Made by a program: the position numbers and the translations under genes. 64,000 bases of DNA from Haloterrigena salifodinae (GTDB lineage Archaea; Halobacteriota; Halobacteria; Halobacteriales; Natrialbaceae): the NCBI RefSeq assembly GCF_003977755.1, contig NZ_RQWN01000003.1, positions 558,001 through 622,000 on the forward strand. Reading direction: 5' to 3'. The notes below the pieces were generated by a model. It was not told where the DNA came from and did not search any database. It saw only the letters and a list, made by a program, of their open reading frames with translations. Positions within the stretch are counted from its first letter, which is position 1, and each line of letters opens with the position of its first letter. Below are positions 21,519 through 52,848 of the stretch, in pieces.

Positions 21519-23981
21519 CTACCCCGTGTACTCGCTTCCGATCACTTCCCGGATCCGCTCGGCGGTCACCGCCCCGACGCCGTCGGCTTCCTGTAACTCG
21601 TCTTCCGTCGCGATCATCACCGCCTCGACGGTGCCGAACTCCTCGAGCAGCGATCGCGCCGTCACGGGCCCGATCTCGGCGATCGAGGAGACGACGTACT
21701 CCTGCTGTTCGGCGAGCGTCTTGGACTGCTTCTCGCCGTGGACCGACACCTCCCGGTCGGCGGTCTCCTGCTCGCGGCCGGCGATCACCGCCAGCAGTTC
21801 GGTCGTCTCCTGTTCGCCCTCCGTCCGGAGGACGCTCGCGCCAAAGTCGACGGCCAGACTCGAGAGCGCTCCCCGAACCGCGTTCGGGTGGACGTCCCGC
21901 TGTTCGTAGAGGCCGTCGCCCTCGACGATCACGATCGGTCGGGAGTAGTGGCGGGCCATCGCGCCGACCTGCTCGAAGACCGACCGGTCGCCGCCAACCA
22001 GCGAGTCGACGAAGTCCGCGACGGACTTGCGCTCGACAACCACCCGGTCCGAACAGACGTAGTCGCCGACGTCGAGCGTCTCGAGGCGGACCTCGATCTC
22101 CTCGCGTCTCGAGAGGTCTCGCGCGATGTTGGCGTCCATCTCGCGCTGGTCCGCGACGACTTCGATGGCGTCGCCCTCAGCGTGGGGTTCGTGGGTTTCG
22201 ACCGCCTCTTCCGCAGCGCCGTCGCTCCCATCGTCTCCGTCGGCGTCGTCTTCGGCTCCGTCGCCGCCTGCGAACTCCCGGAGACCGGGCTGTGACGAAA
22301 CCCCCCCGCTTCCACTGGAAGAATCGCCGACGGCGCCGGGGTTTTCGCTGTGACCGTCCACTTTCACTTCGCTTTCCGGAGCGTCGTCGTCGAAATCCGT
22401 CAGCGCCTGCTGGGAGTCGTCTAACTCTTCCTCTAAGTCGTCGGCGGCCCCTTTCAGGTCGCGCAGTTCCGACTCCATCTCCTTCTCGCGGCGCCGCGAG
22501 ATCCAGAAGTAGGCCTCGTCGCGGGTGTCCTCGGCCATCAGGACGACGACCCGGCCCTCGGACTGTCGGCCGGTCCGGCCCTTGCGCTGGATCGAGCGGA
22601 TCGCCGTCGGAACGGGCTCGTAGAACAGCACGAGGTCGACCTCCGGGACGTCGAGCCCCTCCTCGGCGACCGAGGTGGAGACGAGCACCTCGAACTCGCC
22701 GCCGCGGAACTGATCGAGCACTTCCTGCTGCTCTTTCTGGGTCATCCCGTCGCTCCCCTCGCGGTCGCCCTGGCCAACGAACCGCTTGGCGTCGAAGCTC
22801 TCGGAGAGGAAGTCCGTCAACGCTTCCGCGGTGTCCCGGGACTCAGTGAAGACGATGACGCGCTCGCCGCCCTCGAGGCCGAGCGTCTCGGCGAGCAGCA
22901 TTCTGGTCTTGCGATACTTGGGATGGAGCTGGTCGAAGCTCTCGGCTTTGCGCATCGCCTCCCGCACTCGCGGATCGGAGACCAGCCGCTGGCTCGCCTT
23001 CGAGGCGCCCGACGAGCGGGCCTGGTTGCGCTGGCGGTCGAAGTACCGGCAGACGGCTTCGACGCTCTGGGTTTCGACCAGCGTCACGGCCTGCCGGAGC
23101 TTCATGATTTCCGCGTGGATGGACATCCCCTCGAACCCCTCCGACTGATCGTTGTTGATCAGTTTCTGGAGTTCGGCGCGCATCCGGTTCAGGTCCTTCT
23201 GGGACTGGTCGGGCTGGGTCGAGGACGCCACGCCGAGTTCCTTGAGTTTCTCGAGCCGTTCCTTGATGACTTCGTTGAGCCCGTCCCGAATCTCGATGAC
23301 CTCCTCGGGGAGGTCGATGCGCTCCCATTCGACGTCGGTGTCGTGGGTGAACTCATCGACGTCGGCGTCCTCCTCGGTCATCACCTCGACCTCTCGGAGA
23401 CCGAGGTTCTCACAGACCTCGAGGATGGCCTCCTCGTCGCCGCCGGGCGAGGCCGACATGCCGGTCACCAGCGGATCCGTCGCGTCGGCGTGATAGCGCT
23501 CGGCGATGTAGTTGTAGGCGTAGTCGCCGGTCGCGCGGTGGCACTCGTCGAAGGTGATGTGGGTCACGTCGGAAAGCGAGATCCGACTGCCGACGAGGTC
23601 GTTCTCGATCACCTGCGGTGTCGCCATCACGACCGTCGCTTCCTCCCACATCGCGGCACGATCGTCGGGGCTGACGTCGCCCGTAAATACGACGATCTCC
23701 TCGTCGGGGATCTGCAGCGCCTCGCGGTAGAAATCGGCGTGCTGCTGGACGAGGGGTTTCGTCGGCGCGAGCATCAGCGACTTCCCACCGACCTCCTCAA
23801 GGCGGCGGGCCGTGACGAGCAGACTCACCGTCGTCTTCCCCAGCCCCGTGGGGAGACAGACGAGCGTATGGTGGTTCGCGGCCGTCCCCGCGAGCTTTAG
23901 CTGGTAGAGTCGTCGTTCTAGAAAGTCGGGCTCGAGAAGCGGATGCTCGATCGAGGGCGGTTCCTCGTCCTGTGCTGCCAT
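21519..23981 (-). CDS. hef: Hef helicase-nuclease (XPF/FANCM family)
   Basis: 820 residues. The N-terminal SF2 helicase has Walker A PTGLGKT at 44-50, FDECH (motif II) and QRKGRTGRQ (motif VI). A low-complexity acidic linker (about 520-600) leads to the XPF-type nuclease with ERKSVADF, then tandem helix-hairpin-helix motifs near the C-terminus (EFGTVEAVM, EADGVGAVTAERIREVI). Hef processes stalled or branched replication forks and is important in haloarchaea, which lack some resolvase options. The gene is intact. A frameshifted copy of its first ~57 codons plus upstream DNA occurs 1.4 kb away at 25193-25425. Confidence 0.96.
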   Translation of the reverse strand: MAAQDEEPPSIEHPLLEPDFLERRLYQLKLAGTAANHHTLVCLPTGLGKTTVSLLVTARRLEEVGGKSLMLAPTKPLVQQHADFYREALQIPDEEIVVFTGDVSPDDRAAMWEEATVVMATPQVIENDLVGSRISLSDVTHITFDECHRATGDYAYNYIAERYHADATDPLVTGMSASPGGDEEAILEVCENLGLREVEVMTEEDADVDEFTHDTDVEWERIDLPEEVIEIRDGLNEVIKERLEKLKELGVASSTQPDQSQKDLNRMRAELQKLINNDQSEGFEGMSIHAEIMKLRQAVTLVETQSVEAVCRYFDRQRNQARSSGASKASQRLVSDPRVREAMRKAESFDQLHPKYRKTRMLLAETLGLEGGERVIVFTESRDTAEALTDFLSESFDAKRFVGQGDREGSDGMTQKEQQEVLDQFRGGEFEVLVSTSVAEEGLDVPEVDLVLFYEPVPTAIRSIQRKGRTGRQSEGRVVVLMAEDTRDEAYFWISRRREKEMESELRDLKGAADDLEEELDDSQQALTDFDDDAPESEVKVDGHSENPGAVGDSSSGSGGVSSQPGLREFAGGDGAEDDADGDDGSDGAAEEAVETHEPHAEGDAIEVVADQREMDANIARDLSRREEIEVRLETLDVGDYVCSDRVVVERKSVADFVDSLVGGDRSVFEQVGAMARHYSRPIVIVEGDGLYEQRDVHPNAVRGALSSLAVDFGASVLRTEGEQETTELLAVIAGREQETADREVSVHGEKQSKTLAEQQEYVVSSIAEIGPVTARSLLEEFGTVEAVMIATEDELQEADGVGAVTAERIREVIGSEYTG

Positions 23982-24130
23982 TGCCGACGATTCGACGCGG
24001 CCGCGGTTAAGCGTTGAGAAAGCGTGGTGAAAGTGAACGTAGCCGTTCCCGACGGACTCGCGTCACGTCCGATACTAGTTAGTAATCCGTCACCATTGCT
24101 CTTTTGAAAACCCGTCTCGATATATCGATT

Positions 24131-25102
24131 ATGCCCTCCACAGTACGCAGATTACAACTACGGATGGTCGCTTCGTTCGTCGGCCTGCTGCTCGTCGCGA
24201 GTGCGCTCTTCGTCGGCGTGTGGGCGATGTTTTACGGCGTCTTCTTCCTAATCGGGAGTACGCATCCCGCTTTGATCGCCGCCGGTATCACGGCCGTAAT
24301 TGTAGTCGCGATCGGCTATCTCGAGTACGGACACCTCGAGACGATCGAACGACTCTCCGACGCGCGTCCGGTCGATCGCGAGACGGCCCCGGAGTTGTAT
24401 CAGACGGCGACTCGCGTCGCTGCCCAACTGGACGTGCCACCGCCGACGATCGCCGTCTCGGAGCGCGACGCGCCCGAGGCATTGGTCGTCGGCTTCCGGC
24501 CGACGAACGTCCGTCTGGTACTTTCACGCGGGACGATCGAGACGCTCGAGCGGCCGGACGAACTCGAAGCGGTGATCGCCCACGAACTGGCACACGTCAA
24601 AAACCGAGACGCGATGGTGATGACGGTCGTTTCCCTCCCGGTCGTTCTCGCGGCCGGACTCCGATCACGACTCGCACGGATCGACCACCCTGGAATCGTC
24701 ATAGCCGTGTTCCTCGTCTTTTTAGCGAACGCCGTGTGGGTCGTCGGACGATTCCTCACGGCTCACCTCTCCAGAGCCAGGGAACGCGCCGCGGACCGGG
24801 CCGCCGCGGAGGTGATCGGCTCTCCCACCACCCTCGCCAGCGCGCTCTCCCGTTTGGACCGGGAAATTTCCGAGACGCCCGAGCACGACCTCCGGGACGC
24901 GTCGGCCGTCTCTTCGCTCTCGATCCTGCCGCTGGAACCGGCGGACCCCGAAACGGTTATGCTCGGTCCCGAAGGCGATACCGAGCCGTCGTACTGGTGG
25001 TTCCGAAAGCGGCTCCACCGGCTCGAGCGACGGTTCTTCGGCACGCACCCGCCGACGACTGACCGACTCGAGGCGCTCTCGAGGCTCGAACGGGAATCGT
25101 AA
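24131..25102 (+). CDS. M48-family membrane metalloprotease (HtpX-like)
   Basis: 323 residues from ATG 24131; a TTG at 24104 in the same frame is less likely. Two N-terminal membrane helices (about 12-65) precede the zinc motif HELAH at 151-155, followed by NRDAM, another hydrophobic pair (about 165-205) and ERAADRAA with the third ligand Glu. Such proteases clear damaged membrane proteins. The gene sits between intact hef and the hef remnant, so it may have arrived with that recombination. A TATA-like AT-rich stretch lies at about 24075-24110. Confidence 0.9.
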   Translation: MPSTVRRLQLRMVASFVGLLLVASALFVGVWAMFYGVFFLIGSTHPALIAAGITAVIVVAIGYLEYGHLETIERLSDARPVDRETAPELYQTATRVAAQLDVPPPTIAVSERDAPEALVVGFRPTNVRLVLSRGTIETLERPDELEAVIAHELAHVKNRDAMVMTVVSLPVVLAAGLRSRLARIDHPGIVIAVFLVFLANAVWVVGRFLTAHLSRARERAADRAAAEVIGSPTTLASALSRLDREISETPEHDLRDASAVSSLSILPLEPADPETVMLGPEGDTEPSYWWFRKRLHRLERRFFGTHPPTTDRLEALSRLERES

Positions 25103-25192
25103 CTCGGTCACCAGTCGAGAATTCGCGGTCGGCCCGCTCAACGACACGGAAGGACCATCGTCTCAGACGTTGTCGAACCCCATCGACCGATA

Positions 25193-25425
25193 GGCGGTGA
25201 CGAGCAGGCTCACTGTGGTTTTCCCCAGTCCGGTCGGGAGACAGACGAGGTGTGATGATTCGCGGCCGTTCCCGCGAGTTTCAACTGGTAGAGTCGCCGT
25301 TCTAGAAAGTCGGGCTCGAGAAGCGGATGCTCGATCGAGGGCGGTTCCTTGTCCTGTGCTGCCATTGCCGGCGATTCGACGCGGCCGCGGTTAAGCGTTG
25401 AGAAAGGGCGGTGAAAGTAAACGCG
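25193..25425 (-). pseudogene. Remnant: second, frameshifted copy of the hef upstream region and first ~57 codons
   Basis: The 233 bases align with 23809-24041 (promoter side and start of intact hef) in the same orientation at roughly 88-90% identity by eye. The start codon corresponds to 25363-25365. The reading matches Hef through AGTAANHHT, then a one-base deletion shifts the frame just before the Walker A codons, and homology stops at about 25193. Many differences in the coding part are synonymous, so the copy comes from a diverged functional hef, not a recent local duplication. It is not expected to make a useful protein. Confidence 0.9.
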
Positions 25426-25515
25426 GTGTTTGAACCTGCTTCCTCCCGCCGCGCCACGGCTATTTGCAGCCCAGACATGTAGATTTAAATATACCACGTG
25501 CGGATCCCCAATGAG

Positions 25516-26004
25516 ATGGACGAGCCCTCGAGTCGGTCCCCTGCCGAATCGGCGACGAACCGAGTACATCCTCGCATACGGATCGTCTGGGCGATCAAGT
25601 GGCTGCTCGTTGGCGTCGCCGCAGCGGTCGTCGCGACGATCGTCCTCTCGTCGGATTCGAGCCTCGAGCGGCCCCTCCTCGCTGTCGCGGCGGCGAGTCC
25701 CGTCGTCGGAATCTTGCTGGCGGTCGTCCGCTACCGTCGGTTCCGGTACGCGGTCACCGACGACGGCATCTACGTGCGCCGCGGGCTGTTCACCGTCAAC
25801 GAGACGGTCGTTCCCGCCGCGAGCATCCAGCAGGTCGACGTCGACGAACCGCTTCTCGCGCGGCCGTTCGGCCTCGTCTCCGTTCGGCTCTTCACTGCGG
25901 GGACGTTCGGCGGGCGAGTTGCGATTCCAGGACTCGACGCGGCGACGGCGACCGACCTCGCGGACCGACTCGACCGCCTCGCCAGAGGTGAGTCCGGCGT
26001 ATGA
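25516..26004 (+). CDS. PH-domain (bPH2, YdbS-like) membrane protein
   Basis: 162 residues from ATG 25516; a GTG at 25498 in frame would add six. Two membrane helices (about 25-70) are followed by a bacterial PH domain: YAVTDDGIYVRRGLFTVNETVVPAASIQQVDVDEP, broken here only by family variation. It overlaps the next gene by four bases (ATGA). YdbS/YdbT-type pairs are thought to work together in the membrane, and in Bacillus they affect resistance to other strains' bacteriocins. The role in archaea is unknown. The promoter region contains ATTTAAATATACC at about 25482-25495. Confidence 0.85.
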   Translation: MDEPSSRSPAESATNRVHPRIRIVWAIKWLLVGVAAAVVATIVLSSDSSLERPLLAVAAASPVVGILLAVVRYRRFRYAVTDDGIYVRRGLFTVNETVVPAASIQQVDVDEPLLARPFGLVSVRLFTAGTFGGRVAIPGLDAATATDLADRLDRLARGESGV

Positions 26005-27530
26005 GCGCGTACACGAGTCTGAAGCCTGATATCCGGTCGGTCCCGGTCAAAGCGCTCGAGAACTTCGATTTCACGATGTTCGCGACGCTCGCCGTGATGC
26101 TGACGGTGTTCGGCGACGGATCGGCGTCCGGAATCGATGCGATCGTCTCGGGGGTGGTGACGCTAGTGCTGATCGCCGCCGTCTTCGGGCTCTTTCAGCT
26201 CGTCATCGAGGGCGTCGAGTGGTGGCGCTACAAACTCACCCTCGAGGAGGAATCGATCGTCGTTCGCTCCGGAATTCTTCGTCCCAAACGCCGGACGATC
26301 CCGTTCTCTCGGATCCAGCAGTCGACGGTCTCGACGACGACGCTGAGCCGCCCGTTCGGACTCGCCGTCCTCGAGTGCGAGACCGCCGGCAACCCCGACG
26401 AGGCCGACCTCTCGGTGCGGTACCTCGAGCGGACCGACGCCGAGGACCTCCAGCGGCGAATCCAGTCGGCCGCCGACGTCGATGCGACGTCCGCGAAGCC
26501 GCCGGAGCGCCGTCGCGTCTTCACGCTTCGGCCGCGGGAGCTCGCCCTGTACGGCGTAACCCGTTCCCACCCCAAGACGGTGCTTCTGGCCGCGCTGGCG
26601 TGGGTCGGGGCAAACTACTTCGAACCGGACGCGATGACCGACCTGCGATCGACCGCCGTCGCCCTCCTCGAGGACCTCCTGCCGCTGTCGCCGGCAGTCG
26701 TGCTGGGGCTGGTCGTCCTCGCCGGCTGGCTCGCGGGTGTCGTCCTCGCAATCGATCGAATGGCCCGATTCCGTCTCTCCGCGGGCGAGGGCTCGTTTCG
26801 GCGCCAGCACGGCCTCTTCCGGACGACCGACGCGGATGTCTCGAACGACCGGATCCAGATCGCCCGGGTTCGGTCGAATCCGATACATCGACGGCTGGGG
26901 CTGGCGCAGGCGGATATCGGCACCGCTGGACTCTCCGATCCTGCTCCGTTCGGATTGAAGTGGCCGCTGGCGCCGCTAGCCCGGCGAGACGTCGCGTGGG
27001 ACCTCGTCGAACGGGCTGTCGGAGTCGATCGCTCGGCGATCCACCTCCAGTCCCTCCCTACCCGTGCGCGCCGGCGATACGTCGTCAGATACGCGCTCGG
27101 CGTCGTCGCGCTGGCCGTCGGCACGGTGATCGCCCGGCAGTTTGTTCCGGCGGCTCGAGTGATCCCCCTCCCGCTGTTCGCTGTCTTCCTCGCGCTCGCG
27201 CCGCTCGCGGGTCACGTGACGTGGACCCATCGCGGCTATGCGCTGCTCGAAGACCACGTCGTCGTCCGGCGCGGCTTCTGGACGCGCCGAACGTACGTCA
27301 TCCCGACCGACACCGTCCAGAACCTCACCGTCTCGCAGAGCCCGTTTCAGCGACGCGTCGATCTCGTCTCGGTCCGCCTCGACGTCGCGTCGATGCCGTT
27401 TCTCCCCGGCGTTCCGCTACCCGACGTCGACGCGTCAGTCGGCGGACGACTGCAGCATCGGCTGCTCGAGGACGATTCCGATGATGACTCCGAGGACGAC
27501 CCCACTGAGGTACCGACCGGACGCACATGA
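26001..27530 (+). CDS. PH-domain (bPH2, YdbT-like) membrane protein with three PH repeats
   Basis: 509 residues; ATG 26001 overlaps the previous stop. Three repeats of a two-helix membrane hairpin followed by a bPH2 domain can be seen. They begin near 30, 225 and 360, with PH openings YKLTLEEESIVVRSG, FRLSAGEGSFRRQHG and YALLEDHVVVRRG. This layout is that of YdbT, the usual partner of a YdbS-like short protein, as found upstream. The C-terminus is acidic and low-complexity (DDSDDDSEDDP). The function is unknown; partnership with the upstream gene is strongly suggested by translational coupling. Confidence 0.88.
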   Translation: MSAYTSLKPDIRSVPVKALENFDFTMFATLAVMLTVFGDGSASGIDAIVSGVVTLVLIAAVFGLFQLVIEGVEWWRYKLTLEEESIVVRSGILRPKRRTIPFSRIQQSTVSTTTLSRPFGLAVLECETAGNPDEADLSVRYLERTDAEDLQRRIQSAADVDATSAKPPERRRVFTLRPRELALYGVTRSHPKTVLLAALAWVGANYFEPDAMTDLRSTAVALLEDLLPLSPAVVLGLVVLAGWLAGVVLAIDRMARFRLSAGEGSFRRQHGLFRTTDADVSNDRIQIARVRSNPIHRRLGLAQADIGTAGLSDPAPFGLKWPLAPLARRDVAWDLVERAVGVDRSAIHLQSLPTRARRRYVVRYALGVVALAVGTVIARQFVPAARVIPLPLFAVFLALAPLAGHVTWTHRGYALLEDHVVVRRGFWTRRTYVIPTDTVQNLTVSQSPFQRRVDLVSVRLDVASMPFLPGVPLPDVDASVGGRLQHRLLEDDSDDDSEDDPTEVPTGRT

Positions 27531-48085: not shown

Positions 48086-50152
48086 ATGAGCGACTCCGAT
48101 TCTCGAGGCCCCCTCCAGCCGGATCGTCCCGACGTCGATCGGCCGTTTACGGTCGACGCGCCCTTCGAGCCCGCGGGTGACCAGCCCGAGGCGATCGAGC
48201 AGTTAGCCGAGGGGTTCCGACAGGGGATGGACAGACAGACCCTGCTCGGGGTGACCGGCTCCGGGAAGACGAACACCGTCTCGTGGCTGATCGAGGAAAT
48301 CCAGAAGCCGACGCTGGTGATCGCCCACAACAAGACGCTGGCGGCCCAGCTCTACGAGGAGTTCCGGAACCTGTTCCCCGAGAACGCCGTCGAGTACTTC
48401 GTCTCCTATTACGACTACTACCAACCCGAGGCCTACGTCGAGCAGAGCGACACCTACATCGACAAGGACGCCTCGATCAACGACGAGATCGATCGGCTGC
48501 GCCACTCCGCGACGCGCTCGCTGCTGACCCGCGAGGACGTCATCGTCGTCGCTTCGGTCTCGGCGATCTACGGCCTCGGTGATCCGCGCAACTACGTCGA
48601 CATGTCCCTGCGACTCGAGGTCGGCGAGGAGATCGGCCGCGACGAGCTCTTGAAGCGGCTCGTCGACCTGAACTACGAGCGCAACGACGTCGACTTCACG
48701 CAGGGCACCTTCCGCGTGCGGGGCGACACCGTCGAGATCTACCCGATGTACGGCCGCTACGCCGTCCGCGTGGAGCTCTGGGGCGACGAGATCGACCGCA
48801 TGGTCAAGGTCGACCCACTCGAGGGGAAGACCCAGGGCGACCAGCAGGCCGTCCTCGTCCACCCCGCGGAGCACTACTCGATCCCGGAGACGACTCTCGA
48901 GGAGGCGATGGACGAGATCCGGAACGATCTGGACTCGCGAATCTCTTACTTCGAGCGCACGGGTGACATGATCGCCGCCCAGCGCATCGAGGAGCGGACG
49001 AGCTTCGACCTCGAGATGATGCAGGAGACGGGCTACTGTTCGGGCATCGAGAACTACTCGGTCTACCTGTCGGATCGGGAGTCCGGCGAGGCGCCCTACA
49101 CGCTGCTGGACTACTTTCCGGACGATTTCCTTACCGTCGTCGACGAATCCCACGTCACGCTGCCCCAGGTTCGCGGGCAGTACGCCGGCGACAAGTCGCG
49201 TAAGGACTCGCTGGTCGAGAACGGCTTCCGACTCCCGACGGCCTACGACAACCGGCCGCTCACGTTCGAGGAGTTCCAGGAGAAGACCAACCAGACGCTG
49301 TACGTCTCGGCGACGCCGGGCGACTACGAGCGCGAGGAAAGCGACCAGATCGTCGAACAGATCGTTCGACCCACCCACCTCGTCGACCCCGAGATCGAGG
49401 TCTCGCCGGCCAGCGGCCAGATCGACGACCTGATGGACCGCATCGACGAGCGCATCGAGCGTGACGAACGGACCCTCGTCACCACCCTCACCAAGCGGAT
49501 GGCCGAGGACCTGACCGAGTACTTGGAGGAGGCCGGCGTCGACGTCGCGTACATGCACGACGAGACCGACACCCTCGAGCGCCACGAGATCATCCGCTCG
49601 CTGCGTCTGGGCGAGATCGACGTCCTCGTCGGGATCAACCTCCTGCGGGAGGGGCTGGACATCCCCGAGGTCTCGCTGGTGGCGATTCTCGACGCCGATC
49701 AGGAAGGCTTCCTCCGCAGCGAAACGACGCTCGTCCAGACGATGGGTCGGGCGGCGCGAAACGTCAACGGCGAGGTCGTCCTCTACGCCGACGACCCCTC
49801 GAACGCCATGGAGTCGGCGATCGAGGAAACCCAGCGTCGCCGCCGGATCCAACAGGAGTACAACGAGGAACACGGCTTCGAACCGACGACGATCCAGAAG
49901 GAAGTCGGGGAGACGAACCTCCCCGGCAGCAAGACCGAGACCACGCAGGTCTCGGGCCGCGAGATCGAAGACGAGGAGGAGGCCGAACGCTACGTCGCCG
50001 AACTCGAGGATCGCATGGACGAAGCGGCGAGCAACCTCGAGTTCGAACTGGCGGCGGACATCCGCGACCGGATTCGGGAGGTCCGAGAAGAGTTCGAACT
50101 CGGAGGCAGTGGCGAGGACGAGGGGATCGCGCCGCCGACCGAGGAGTTCTGA
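48086..50152 (+). CDS. uvrB: Excinuclease ABC subunit UvrB
   Basis: 688 residues. Walker A is GVTGSGKT (55-62). The beta-hairpin that clamps DNA is intact ([18 protein letters not shown]), as are DESH-type motif II (VVDESHVT), the helicase motif VI (QTMGRAARN) and the C-terminal UVR domain ([20 protein letters not shown]) that binds UvrA/UvrC. UvrB verifies damage in bacterial-type nucleotide excision repair, which haloarchaea acquired. Length is standard. The low-GC gene that follows starts nine bases after the stop. Confidence 0.97.
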
Positions 50153-50161
50153 GCAACATCC

Positions 50162-50710
50162 ATGAGCTCTGCATACGATCAGGCATTGTCTCTCGAGCAA
50201 AAGGGCGAGTTAGCCTCGGCGGCGGTGCTCTACACCGACGCGGGATTCTCCAAACTGAATGATGCAGATTTCGAGTTCGGAACGAAGTACCGAGTCGGAT
50301 TCACGACGCTGCTTAGAGCCATCAGCGCAGACGCACGTGCAGGCAACCAGACGCGTGCAACGGCGATTCGTGACGTCGTCGTGACATTGATCGAGCGTGC
50401 TGTCGACGCTGACTCTCGAGCGGACCGAATTCTTCAAGGGCTATATTATGAGTGGATCGGTGACGCCTATTTACTCACCCGCTCCGAACGAACTGCGGAC
50501 TATTACCGAATGGCCCTCGAAACGTACGAGAACCACTCACAGAGTGAGTTCCTCTCGTGGGATATGGAGCAGGAGTTCGACTACGCACACTGGGCAGTGC
50601 AGTCGTACTTATCAGAGAACGGAATAGATATCGCTGAAGAACTTCCCTCTCTGGACTTTCCCTCCCGCATTGAAGCTAAACTCGAATACGCCGAATCGGA
50701 CGAATCGTAA
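50162..50710 (+). CDS. Hypothetical TPR/SNAP-like helical-repeat protein, low-GC island
   Basis: 182 residues. The start MSSAYDQALSLEQKGELASA with AVLYTDAGF is a TPR-like helix pair (A-x-x-x-E-x-G-x-x-x-x-A), and a second possible pair is YYEWIGDAYLLTRSERTADY. No signal or membrane segment. Its codon use and base composition are distinctly AT-richer than uvrB just upstream, suggesting transfer. Downstream, a coding fragment in other frames (to 50820) hints that the gene was once longer. The partner is probably the next gene; the role is unknown, with a toxin-immunity or defence role possible but unproved. Confidence 0.7.
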   Translation: MSSAYDQALSLEQKGELASAAVLYTDAGFSKLNDADFEFGTKYRVGFTTLLRAISADARAGNQTRATAIRDVVVTLIERAVDADSRADRILQGLYYEWIGDAYLLTRSERTADYYRMALETYENHSQSEFLSWDMEQEFDYAHWAVQSYLSENGIDIAEELPSLDFPSRIEAKLEYAESDES

Positions 50711-50820
50711 CGGATCGCTCGAAGAGACGTATTCATCCACCTAACGAAGGGAATGAGATCATTGAAGATGTCGATATCGATGAACAAGCAGAGCCAATTC
50801 CAGAACTGGACACGCCATGA
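50680..50820 (+). pseudogene. Startless coding tail between the two island genes
   Basis: In the frame ending at TGA 50818-50820 the last 25 residues (NEGNEIIEDVDIDEQAEPIP, then ELDTP) look like a genuine acidic protein tail. Stops at 50671 and 50677 and the lack of ATG/GTG exclude an independent gene. The stop overlaps the next ATG (ATGA), the usual coupling signal. It is best read as the shifted C-terminus of the upstream gene or of a lost one. Confidence 0.4.
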
Positions 50821-51245
50821 TCAAATTTGAATTGAAAAATGAATATGGCGGCTGGAAAGTGACCGGTCTACCCGATAGTCTGCGATTCGTGGTGCAGACG
50901 CCGACAAAATCTATTACGTTTAATGCGTCACTTGAGGAACTGCTGCGAGCGTATGGACACATCTACCACGAAAAAGACGGGGTCATCCCTGTGTACACGT
51001 CAACGTTGGAATTCACCTTCCACGACGATACCTGTCGCCTCAGCACCAACGCGCACAGTACGCAAATAGACACATGCGAACTGAGAAACTCTTTCGAAGA
51101 TTTACTCTTAGAAATATTCCAATCGAAAAATGGAAAAGATCCTGGGAGACGTGGCGATCAATTCGAACACGTTTCTACAAAACTTCGAAAGAAGGGGATC
51201 GGATATGATGTTTTCACGCTACATGACTCACTAGTTGATGATTGA
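50817..51245 (+). CDS. Hypothetical protein, low-GC island
   Basis: 142 residues: MIKFELKNEYGGWKVTGLPD, FVVQTPTKSITFNASLEELLRAYG, LEFTFHDDTCRLSTN and a C-terminal helix with FEDLLLEIFQ. It appears to be a small alpha/beta protein and is less acidic than normal for this genome. The AT content is high throughout. No family is recognised. The ATG overlaps the TGA of the preceding coding tail. A pair of unknown genes, one helical-repeat and one small alpha/beta, is reminiscent of immunity-type cassettes, but this is speculation. Confidence 0.65.
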   Translation: MIKFELKNEYGGWKVTGLPDSLRFVVQTPTKSITFNASLEELLRAYGHIYHEKDGVIPVYTSTLEFTFHDDTCRLSTNAHSTQIDTCELRNSFEDLLLEIFQSKNGKDPGRRGDQFEHVSTKLRKKGIGYDVFTLHDSLVDD

Positions 51246-51378
51246 TCTGATATAGGACTGAGTTGTCTAGTTGGGACTTCCGCCGATATTCAACGACAGC
51301 TGTGCGAAATAAATAAAGATACTAATAATGTAACGAAGAAAACACACTCTGATCTCTCTATAGTCTCTATTCGTTGTT

Positions 51379-51493
51379 TAGAGCACGCTAAATCCGAGTT
51401 TCGCCACCCCGAAGACAGGCCCCACAGCAGGTGGAGCGCGACGCCGACGACGGCGGATAGGAATTGTAGATCGTGGCGAACGAGACCGCAGAT
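51379..51493 (-). pseudogene. Decayed 3' end of a second copy of the 10-TM metal exporter gene
   Basis: The 115 bases align with 51627-51741 (3' end of the intact exporter gene) in the same orientation at roughly 80% identity. The peptide AVVGVALHLLW is kept. After it, one base is missing, and the shifted frame then continues GPVFGVAKLGFSVL to its own TAA, matching APVFGMAEFGFGVL of the intact gene. Homology ends near 51493, about 35 codons in. So a diverged homologue was cut here, next to the low-GC island. Confidence 0.85.
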
Positions 51494-51624
51494 AGCCAAC
51501 TCGAGGGCGCGTACGCTGTCAGAGGCTCAGTGTAGTAATTTTTCGTGTGGAGCCGATCCTCGTCTAGCCGACGGTCCGTCTCGTCGGAACGGACCGCGGT
51601 CGCCTCGCGGCGTTCGAGTGACGA

Positions 51625-52848
51625 TCAGAGCACGCCGAACCCGAACTCCGCCATCCCGAAGACGGGCGCCCACAGCAGGTGCAGCGCGACGCCGACGACG
51701 ACCGCGGGCAGGAAGTTGTAGATCGTGGCGACGATCGCCGCTTTGGCGTCGACGGCCAGCAGCGGGAACAGGGCGTCGCCGTCCTGGGCGATCGCGTTGG
51801 CGGTCAGTGCCGAAAACGGCAGGCCGCCCTCGGCGTAGACGCTGGCCAGCAGAATCTGCGGGCCGCAACCCGGAATGAGGCCGACGACGGCGCCGCCGAT
51901 CGGGGCGAGCACCCCGGCCGCCGAGGCGACGGTCGTGACGTCGATCCCCGTCAGGAGGACGGCGTACTCGTAGATGAGGAAGGCCACGAGCACCCAGACG
52001 GTGACGAAACTCGTCTCCATCGCCGCGTGGGTGAGCGTGTCGTACACCGAGCCGAAGGAGTCCCGCGCCCGGGCGATCTCCCCTTCGCCGACGTAGTGGC
52101 GGCCGACCGCGTAGAGGTACAGCGACAGCACCGCGCCGATGATGCCGACGACGGTGAAGAGGCCGTCGAAGCCGAGGCCGGCCGTCAGCGGGACCTCGGG
52201 ACCGCCGCGGAGCAGGTAGAGACTCCCGAGGACGAGCCCCGCGACGGCCGCGATCCACCACAGGACGTGCGCGAGATGGGAGAGCGGGGTGAGAACCCGA
52301 GAGTGTCGATCCGGACCCGCGTCGTGCGCACACGCCGGCGACGGTCCGCCGTAGTCGTGGGCGGGGTTCGGTCCGACGCCGCCGTTGACGACGGTGCCGC
52401 CGTCGGCCATCGCCGGCGAGAGCTTCGCGACGGCGTTGTCGACTCGAGTGACGCCCAGCCCGACGGAGTCGACGAGGTAGCCCGTCGCGACCGACGCCGC
52501 GAAGGCGATGGCGTAGGCGTACAGCGCGGCTTCGGGGGCGAGCGCGAGGATGACGAACGCCGAGTCGCCCGCGGTCGCTCCGAGCGTCGCGACGACGGTC
52601 CCGAAGCTGACCGTGCCGCGGACGTACAGCGGCATGACGACGATCGCGCCGCCGCAGCCGGGGGTCAGCCCGAGGATGCCCCCGAACAGGACCTGGAGCC
52701 GCTCGTTGTCTTCGATCGCCGCGAGCGCGGCGCCGTCGGTTCGGTACTGGATCAGTCCGAACGCAAGCACCGTTACCGCGACGAACGCGCTCACTTGCAC
52801 GTAGCCGTCCCGCAGCGACTCGAGGAGGACGGTCAGCAGTTCGTTCAC
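51625..52848 (-). CDS. Putative 10-TM heavy-metal (manganese/arsenic-type) exporter
   Basis: 407 residues with about 10 hydrophobic segments in two halves. Each half carries the family motif: LTPGCGGAIVVMPLYVRG near 60 and LIPGCGPQILLASVYAEGG near 335. A His-rich soluble loop (about 170-200) lies between halves, with CAHDAGPDRHSR. This fits the ArsP_2-type putative 10TM heavy-metal exporter family, often called putative manganese transporter. The actual metal is unknown. An inverted repeat of DtxR/MntR type precedes the gene (52888-52913), consistent with metal-responsive control. Confidence 0.82.
   Translation of the reverse strand: MNELLTVLLESLRDGYVQVSAFVAVTVLAFGLIQYRTDGAALAAIEDNERLQVLFGGILGLTPGCGGAIVVMPLYVRGTVSFGTVVATLGATAGDSAFVILALAPEAALYAYAIAFAASVATGYLVDSVGLGVTRVDNAVAKLSPAMADGGTVVNGGVGPNPAHDYGGPSPACAHDAGPDRHSRVLTPLSHLAHVLWWIAAVAGLVLGSLYLLRGGPEVPLTAGLGFDGLFTVVGIIGAVLSLYLYAVGRHYVGEGEIARARDSFGSVYDTLTHAAMETSFVTVWVLVAFLIYEYAVLLTGIDVTTVASAAGVLAPIGGAVVGLIPGCGPQILLASVYAEGGLPFSALTANAIAQDGDALFPLLAVDAKAAIVATIYNFLPAVVVGVALHLLWAPVFGMAEFGFGVL

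Follow-up and report, generated by a model that had tools for sequence, protein, structure and literature searches.

Integrative elements, such as SXT in prfC, enter the 5′ ends of genes and supply a new 5′ end, so that the target gene is left intact and the old 5′ end is displaced. In homology-facilitated illegitimate recombination (HFIR), as seen in Acinetobacter, Streptococcus pneumoniae and Pseudomonas stutzeri, foreign genes come to lie beside an anchor gene through one homologous and one illegitimate side, and the non-homologous side usually has 3–10 bp of microhomology. In bacteria, the illegitimate side usually brings deletions, which the classical products carry (PMC3240628). Displaced orphan gene parts are also found in the T6SS effector-immunity arrays of Vibrio cholerae and in Rhs loci, where the old part of a gene is shifted outward by a newly arriving module that is anchored in conserved sequence (PMC5361080). 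In Halobacteria, homologous recombination between genera, which proceeds via conserved flanks and meets no absolute barrier, has been described as frequent and usually amounts to allele replacement (review PMC4500145). We found no experimental tests of HFIR in haloarchaea in the literature.

The locus described here is a small gene islet upstream of hef in the 4.96-Mb genome of the haloarchaeon Haloterrigena salifodinae. As in HFIR, it appears to combine one homologous and one illegitimate side, with foreign genes beside an anchor gene but with a duplication of the resident 5′ end instead of a deletion. The outward displacement of an old gene part recalls the Vibrio and Rhs loci, although there an immunity gene or the 3′ end of a gene is orphaned, whereas the orphan here is the dead 5′ end of a housekeeping gene. 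Like recombination between haloarchaeal genera, the islet involves conserved flanks, but it represents additive gene gain rather than allele replacement, and, unlike the SXT-type elements, with which it shares the intact target gene and the displaced 5′ end, it has no integrase or att core and carries one to three ordinary genes. As a trace of gene transfer, the locus is clear, if fairly ordinary.

The hef locus in Haloterrigena salifodinae

All positions are those of the window, the whole 64-kb stretch of DNA that was analyzed, and G001 to G005 denote the other Haloterrigena genomes. The features of the locus are as follows.

21519..23981, minus strand: hef helicase-nuclease, intact, 820 aa (NCBIfam PRK13766 Hef nuclease, 1130 bits)
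23808..24039, minus strand: intact copy of the 233-bp repeat, comprising the hef 5′ end and 59 bp upstream (repeat alignment)
24072..24077: deletion point, where H. salifodinae and G003 lack 1.83 kb that G002 has (blastn of the interval between hef and M48 in G002 against both genomes)
24131..25102, plus strand: M48 family metalloprotease, intact, the last surviving cargo gene of the islet (Pfam PF01435 Peptidase_M48, E = 6e-28)
25103..25192: downstream end of the islet, which meets hef codon 58 at 25192/25193 (a join shared by G002 and Natrinema pallidum)
25193..25425, minus strand: remnant, a displaced Haloterrigena hef 5′ end that comprises upstream sequence and 58 codons with one base deleted (alignments, tree, site table)
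25285..25293: putative switch inside the remnant, the left part sharing states with the G002 remnant and the right part following the crown Haloterrigena hef (site table)
25498..26004, plus strand: bPH1, the original outer neighbor of hef, which it adjoins in G004 (profile match, gene order)
26001..27530, plus strand: bPH2, a second gene with a bPH_2 domain (least fourfold divergence from G004)

Read in the orientation of hef, the gene order is hef, M48, remnant, bPH1 and bPH2, and each Haloterrigena genome has one full copy of hef. The sequence-only reading held that the upstream region and first codons of hef occur twice in the same orientation with a protease gene between them, which the alignment bears out: positions 23808–24039 and 25193 to about 25425 are 90.5% identical over 232 bp, are spaced 1,385 bp apart, and comprise hef codons 1–58 together with 59 bp of upstream sequence. 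Its description of the second copy, with a one-base deletion and many synonymous changes, is likewise accurate, the deletion falling at repeat position 58 (approximately 25250 in the window) and 15 of the 17 substitutions in the coding part falling at third codon positions (2/0/15 by codon position). The background scan covered the window and 400 kb of the same contig; in the window there is no other near direct repeat this long and similar with more than 1 kb between the copies, and none of the 16 near repeat pairs in the 400 kb has the properties of the hef repeat. Apart from containing the bPH1 promoter region, the remnant most likely serves no function.

The M48 protein contains the HELAHVKN motif (an HExxH-type zinc site) and matches the HtpX models at E = 8e-48, yet falls under their curated (equivalog) cut-offs. 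The dN/dS values among the four carriers of the gene (0.22–0.27) indicate purifying selection. A strong compositional anomaly of M48 was considered and dropped: the composition of the gene is only mildly atypical (GC3 of 0.77 against 0.82–0.88 for the neighboring genes), the islet cargo as a whole spans 0.53–0.77, and the genes that are clearly anomalous are two further cargo genes of G002, those for a Tat-signal protein and a membrane protein. Stretches 72–78% identical to the M48 gene of the window also occur elsewhere in the same genome (G000:C3:80347-80955, L043), likely in a paralogue.

Distribution of the islet

M48 lies beside hef in 4 of the 125 genomes of the family, across two genera; among the close relatives, it does so in G002 and G003 but not in G004, G005 or G001. 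The order in G002 is hef, the Tat-signal protein (262 aa), the 108-aa membrane protein (TM108), M48, remnant, bPH1 and bPH2, with the same join between the M48 side and hef codon 58. The order in G003 is hef, M48, bPH1 and bPH2, without the remnant; this genome and that of H. salifodinae share one 1.83-kb deletion, with which the Tat-signal protein and TM108 genes are gone. In G003, about 120 bp of unrelated sequence separate the end of the islet from the flank of bPH1 (L038 8128-8254).

G004 represents the empty site, with hef directly beside bPH1-bPH2. The sequence upstream of hef in G004 matches the outer flank of the remnants, so that the remnant is, by position, the displaced 5′ end of the resident Haloterrigena hef and not an imported hef, as the sequence-only reading had it. 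G005 and G001 have neither the islet nor the bPH genes at hef, and because G005 is nearer to the carriers than G004 in the species tree, a loss or replacement is required in G005. The bPH1-bPH2 pair (25498–27530) lies beside hef in four of the six Haloterrigena genomes, G001 and G005 being the two that lack it at this place. Insertions on the upstream side of hef appear to be frequent across Natrialbaceae.

The compound cargo of Tat-signal protein, TM108 and M48 is confined to G002 and N. pallidum among the 125 family genomes. The Tat-signal protein occurs in 6 and TM108 in 17 of these genomes, with M48 beside them only in those two; neither protein has a Pfam match (L040 7874-9158 in G002; L046 6537-7802). 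The pair, without M48 nearby, is also present in G023, G050 and G076. In G002 and N. pallidum, the repeats enclose only these three genes and no integrase or recombinase, and the compound cargo was not found on any circle, plasmid or phage/virus record or with any recombinase, plasmids carrying only distant M48 relatives. A reading of the islet as a mobile element was rejected on these grounds.

Transfer between genera

Natrinema pallidum DSM 3751 (G063, record L046) carries these three genes as an islet next to its native hef; the join between the M48 side and hef codon 58 is identical, and a remnant of only 53 bp follows. Given that this join is common to H. salifodinae, G002 and N. pallidum, the first event was old and single. 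The right join in N. pallidum (L046 ~9114) runs into a flank that starts 165 bp upstream of hef in Natrinema G050; the approximately 165 bp of native upstream sequence absent in comparison with G050 could also reflect a later deletion. By eye, this join and the one at 25192/25193 are non-homologous, with no clear microhomology of 3–10 bp.

The fourfold divergence between Haloterrigena and N. pallidum is 33–35% for hef, 21–25% for M48, 20% for TM108 and 14.5% for the Tat-signal protein; the cargo is less diverged than hef and, accordingly, the islet is younger than the split of the genera. The hef CDS of N. pallidum is native (95% identity to Natrinema G050, 91–99% in most segments compared), whereas the upstream stretch of 59 bp has 3 mismatches to Haloterrigena G002 and is unlike G050. 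This combination of a native CDS with a Haloterrigena-type upstream region places the homologous crossover at the start codon of hef, and the promoter sequence suggests that the donor had a hef promoter of Haloterrigena type. The homologous side of the islet is thus supported in N. pallidum by the native CDS, the promoter and the switch at the start codon. Taken together, the lower divergence of the cargo and the Haloterrigena-like promoter indicate that the islet crossed genera through the 5′ end of hef. In the tree of M48, the four carriers form a clade (100/100) in which the three Haloterrigena sequences group to the exclusion of N. pallidum (91/82).

Source of the remnant

The remnant of H. 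salifodinae differs from the hef of G004 at 14 of 232 positions and from the hef of its own genome at 22 of 232, and any hef of the other genera in the panel differs from it at 30 positions or more. In a tree of 48 sequences of the 233-bp stretch, the remnant is the sister of the G004 hef (96/89) inside Haloterrigena (95/89), and a source in a foreign genus was therefore rejected. Its differences from hef being nearly all at third positions, the source hef appears to have been functional until recently. The proposal that the remnant was once a functional hef of another lineage thus holds as to function, and the remnant is indeed not closest to the resident hef, but the lineage is congeneric, nearest to G004.

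The remnant of G002 is of a different kind. It is 83% identical to that of H. salifodinae, so that the structure recurs in relatives but with another degree of divergence, and about 85% identical to the hef of G002 itself (35/231 differences); its substitutions fall at all codon positions (7/5/16), as expected of dead sequence. In the same tree, it occupies a long, poorly placed branch and is not the sister of the remnant of H. salifodinae. The two remnants share four states, at repeat positions 25, 88, 91 and 93, that are absent from the other crown Haloterrigena hef genes; from about repeat position 101, the remnant of H. salifodinae follows the crown hef, and that of G002 follows states common in other genera. 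Because the two remnants are not sisters, a later overwriting has to be added to their history: to judge from the aligned sites, the remnant of H. salifodinae was probably overwritten by homologous DNA from a G004-like relative. In this respect, the homologous replacement proposed in the sequence-only reading stands. Perhaps bPH2 was overwritten together with it, the fourfold divergence of this gene being 15.2% to G004 against 19.7 and 24.5% to the other two carriers of the pair; that of bPH1 is 17–18% to all three and does not discriminate.

Proposed history and alternatives

The case for an islet is strong and is directly supported by the shared join, the empty site, the loss of cargo, the younger divergence of the cargo and the Haloterrigena-type promoter in N. 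pallidum. Its insertion through hef homology at one end and illegitimately at the other, with later losses and overwriting, is probable, and from the comparisons above we infer the order of events, their direction and the illegitimate mechanism. An ancestor of the three Haloterrigena species would have gained, upstream of hef, the genes for the Tat-signal protein, TM108 and M48. Homology in the 5′ end of hef would have provided the join at one end of the islet, so that hef kept an intact start and promoter; at the other end, the islet would have been joined illegitimately within the resident hef at codon 58, which would have stranded the resident 5′ end beside bPH1 as the 233-bp remnant. Later, a crossover at the start codon of hef, combined with a second illegitimate join, would have carried the islet into N. 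pallidum. The lineage of H. salifodinae and G003 lost the first two cargo genes in the one 1.83-kb deletion, and G003 lost the remnant, and in H. salifodinae the remnant, probably with the bPH genes, would have been overwritten by DNA of the G004-like relative. What speaks against one-sided insertion is that Haloterrigena shows a duplication and no deletion relative to G004; this duplication in place of the usual deletion is the weak point of the model and would require a join on the hef side of the homologous crossover, on a second copy of the chromosome. The absence of clear microhomology at either join, the overwriting needed for the non-sister remnants and the additional step needed for G005 also weigh against the model.

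Campbell-type integration, which would make a deletion unnecessary, is possible but rather doubtful. A circle with the 233-bp hef 5′ piece and the cargo would recombine once with hef, yielding hef, cargo and truncated hef in the observed order and orientation and with the observed duplication, and the repeats would allow re-excision. A complete 233-bp direct repeat does flank the cargo in H. salifodinae and G002 (only 53 bp in N. pallidum), empty sites such as that of G004 exist, and the remnant is mosaic around repeat position 93–101, which is the pattern that a crossover within the repeat would produce. As an explanation of this mosaic, the crossover tract fits the remnant of H. salifodinae but was rejected because that of G002 shows no switch, and the mosaic is therefore read as later overwriting. 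Furthermore, no circle, plasmid, virus or recombinase with the compound cargo was found, the right side in N. pallidum is without the native hef 5′ end and upstream sequence expected from a single crossover, and the origin of the join to hef codon 58 on the circle is left unexplained.

The Haloterrigena type of both hef and the remnant would also accord with a plain tandem duplication of the hef 5′ end in one genome, followed by insertion of the cargo between the copies. This is improbable, given that the cargo of G002 starts and stops exactly at the repeat borders and that none of the 125 genomes searched has the duplication without the cargo. Least credible of all is the sequence-only reading, taken as a recent replacement that introduced M48 and hef DNA from a foreign genus into this strain. 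In its favor, the remnant has hardly decayed and resembles the hef of another species more closely than that of its own genome, but its nearest hef is congeneric (14/232 differences against at least 30 for the other genera in the panel), the body of the resident hef is ordinary Haloterrigena, and the presence of the same join in G002 and N. pallidum refutes a single recent event. The recombination scar did come with the gain of M48, but an event of this strain with hef DNA from another genus is not supported.

A second candidate scar

With empty sites in both genera, the same join and a donor-type promoter, the hef islet is a polarized example of gene gain across genera, which suggests that haloarchaea, via a short conserved gene end, add new genes across genera and do not just swap alleles. 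Displaced gene ends could serve as genome-wide markers of such gains. Tentatively, the ends of housekeeping genes in haloarchaea might be recurrent homology anchors for the additive gain of islets, each of which leaves a duplicated gene end. A second islet in the window, bordered by the following genes, suggests that such scars may recur, although two cases set no rule.

48086-50152: uvrB
51625-52848, minus strand: permease gene, with its intact 3′ end at 51627-51731

Between uvrB and the permease gene, there is a two-gene islet of low GC content (about 0.47) at 50155-51624, bordered by a 100-bp, 85% identical copy of the permease 3′ end at 51380-51479. Most of this islet is absent at this place in five congeners, in which the interval ranges from 0.25 to 9 kb and holds other sequence or none.
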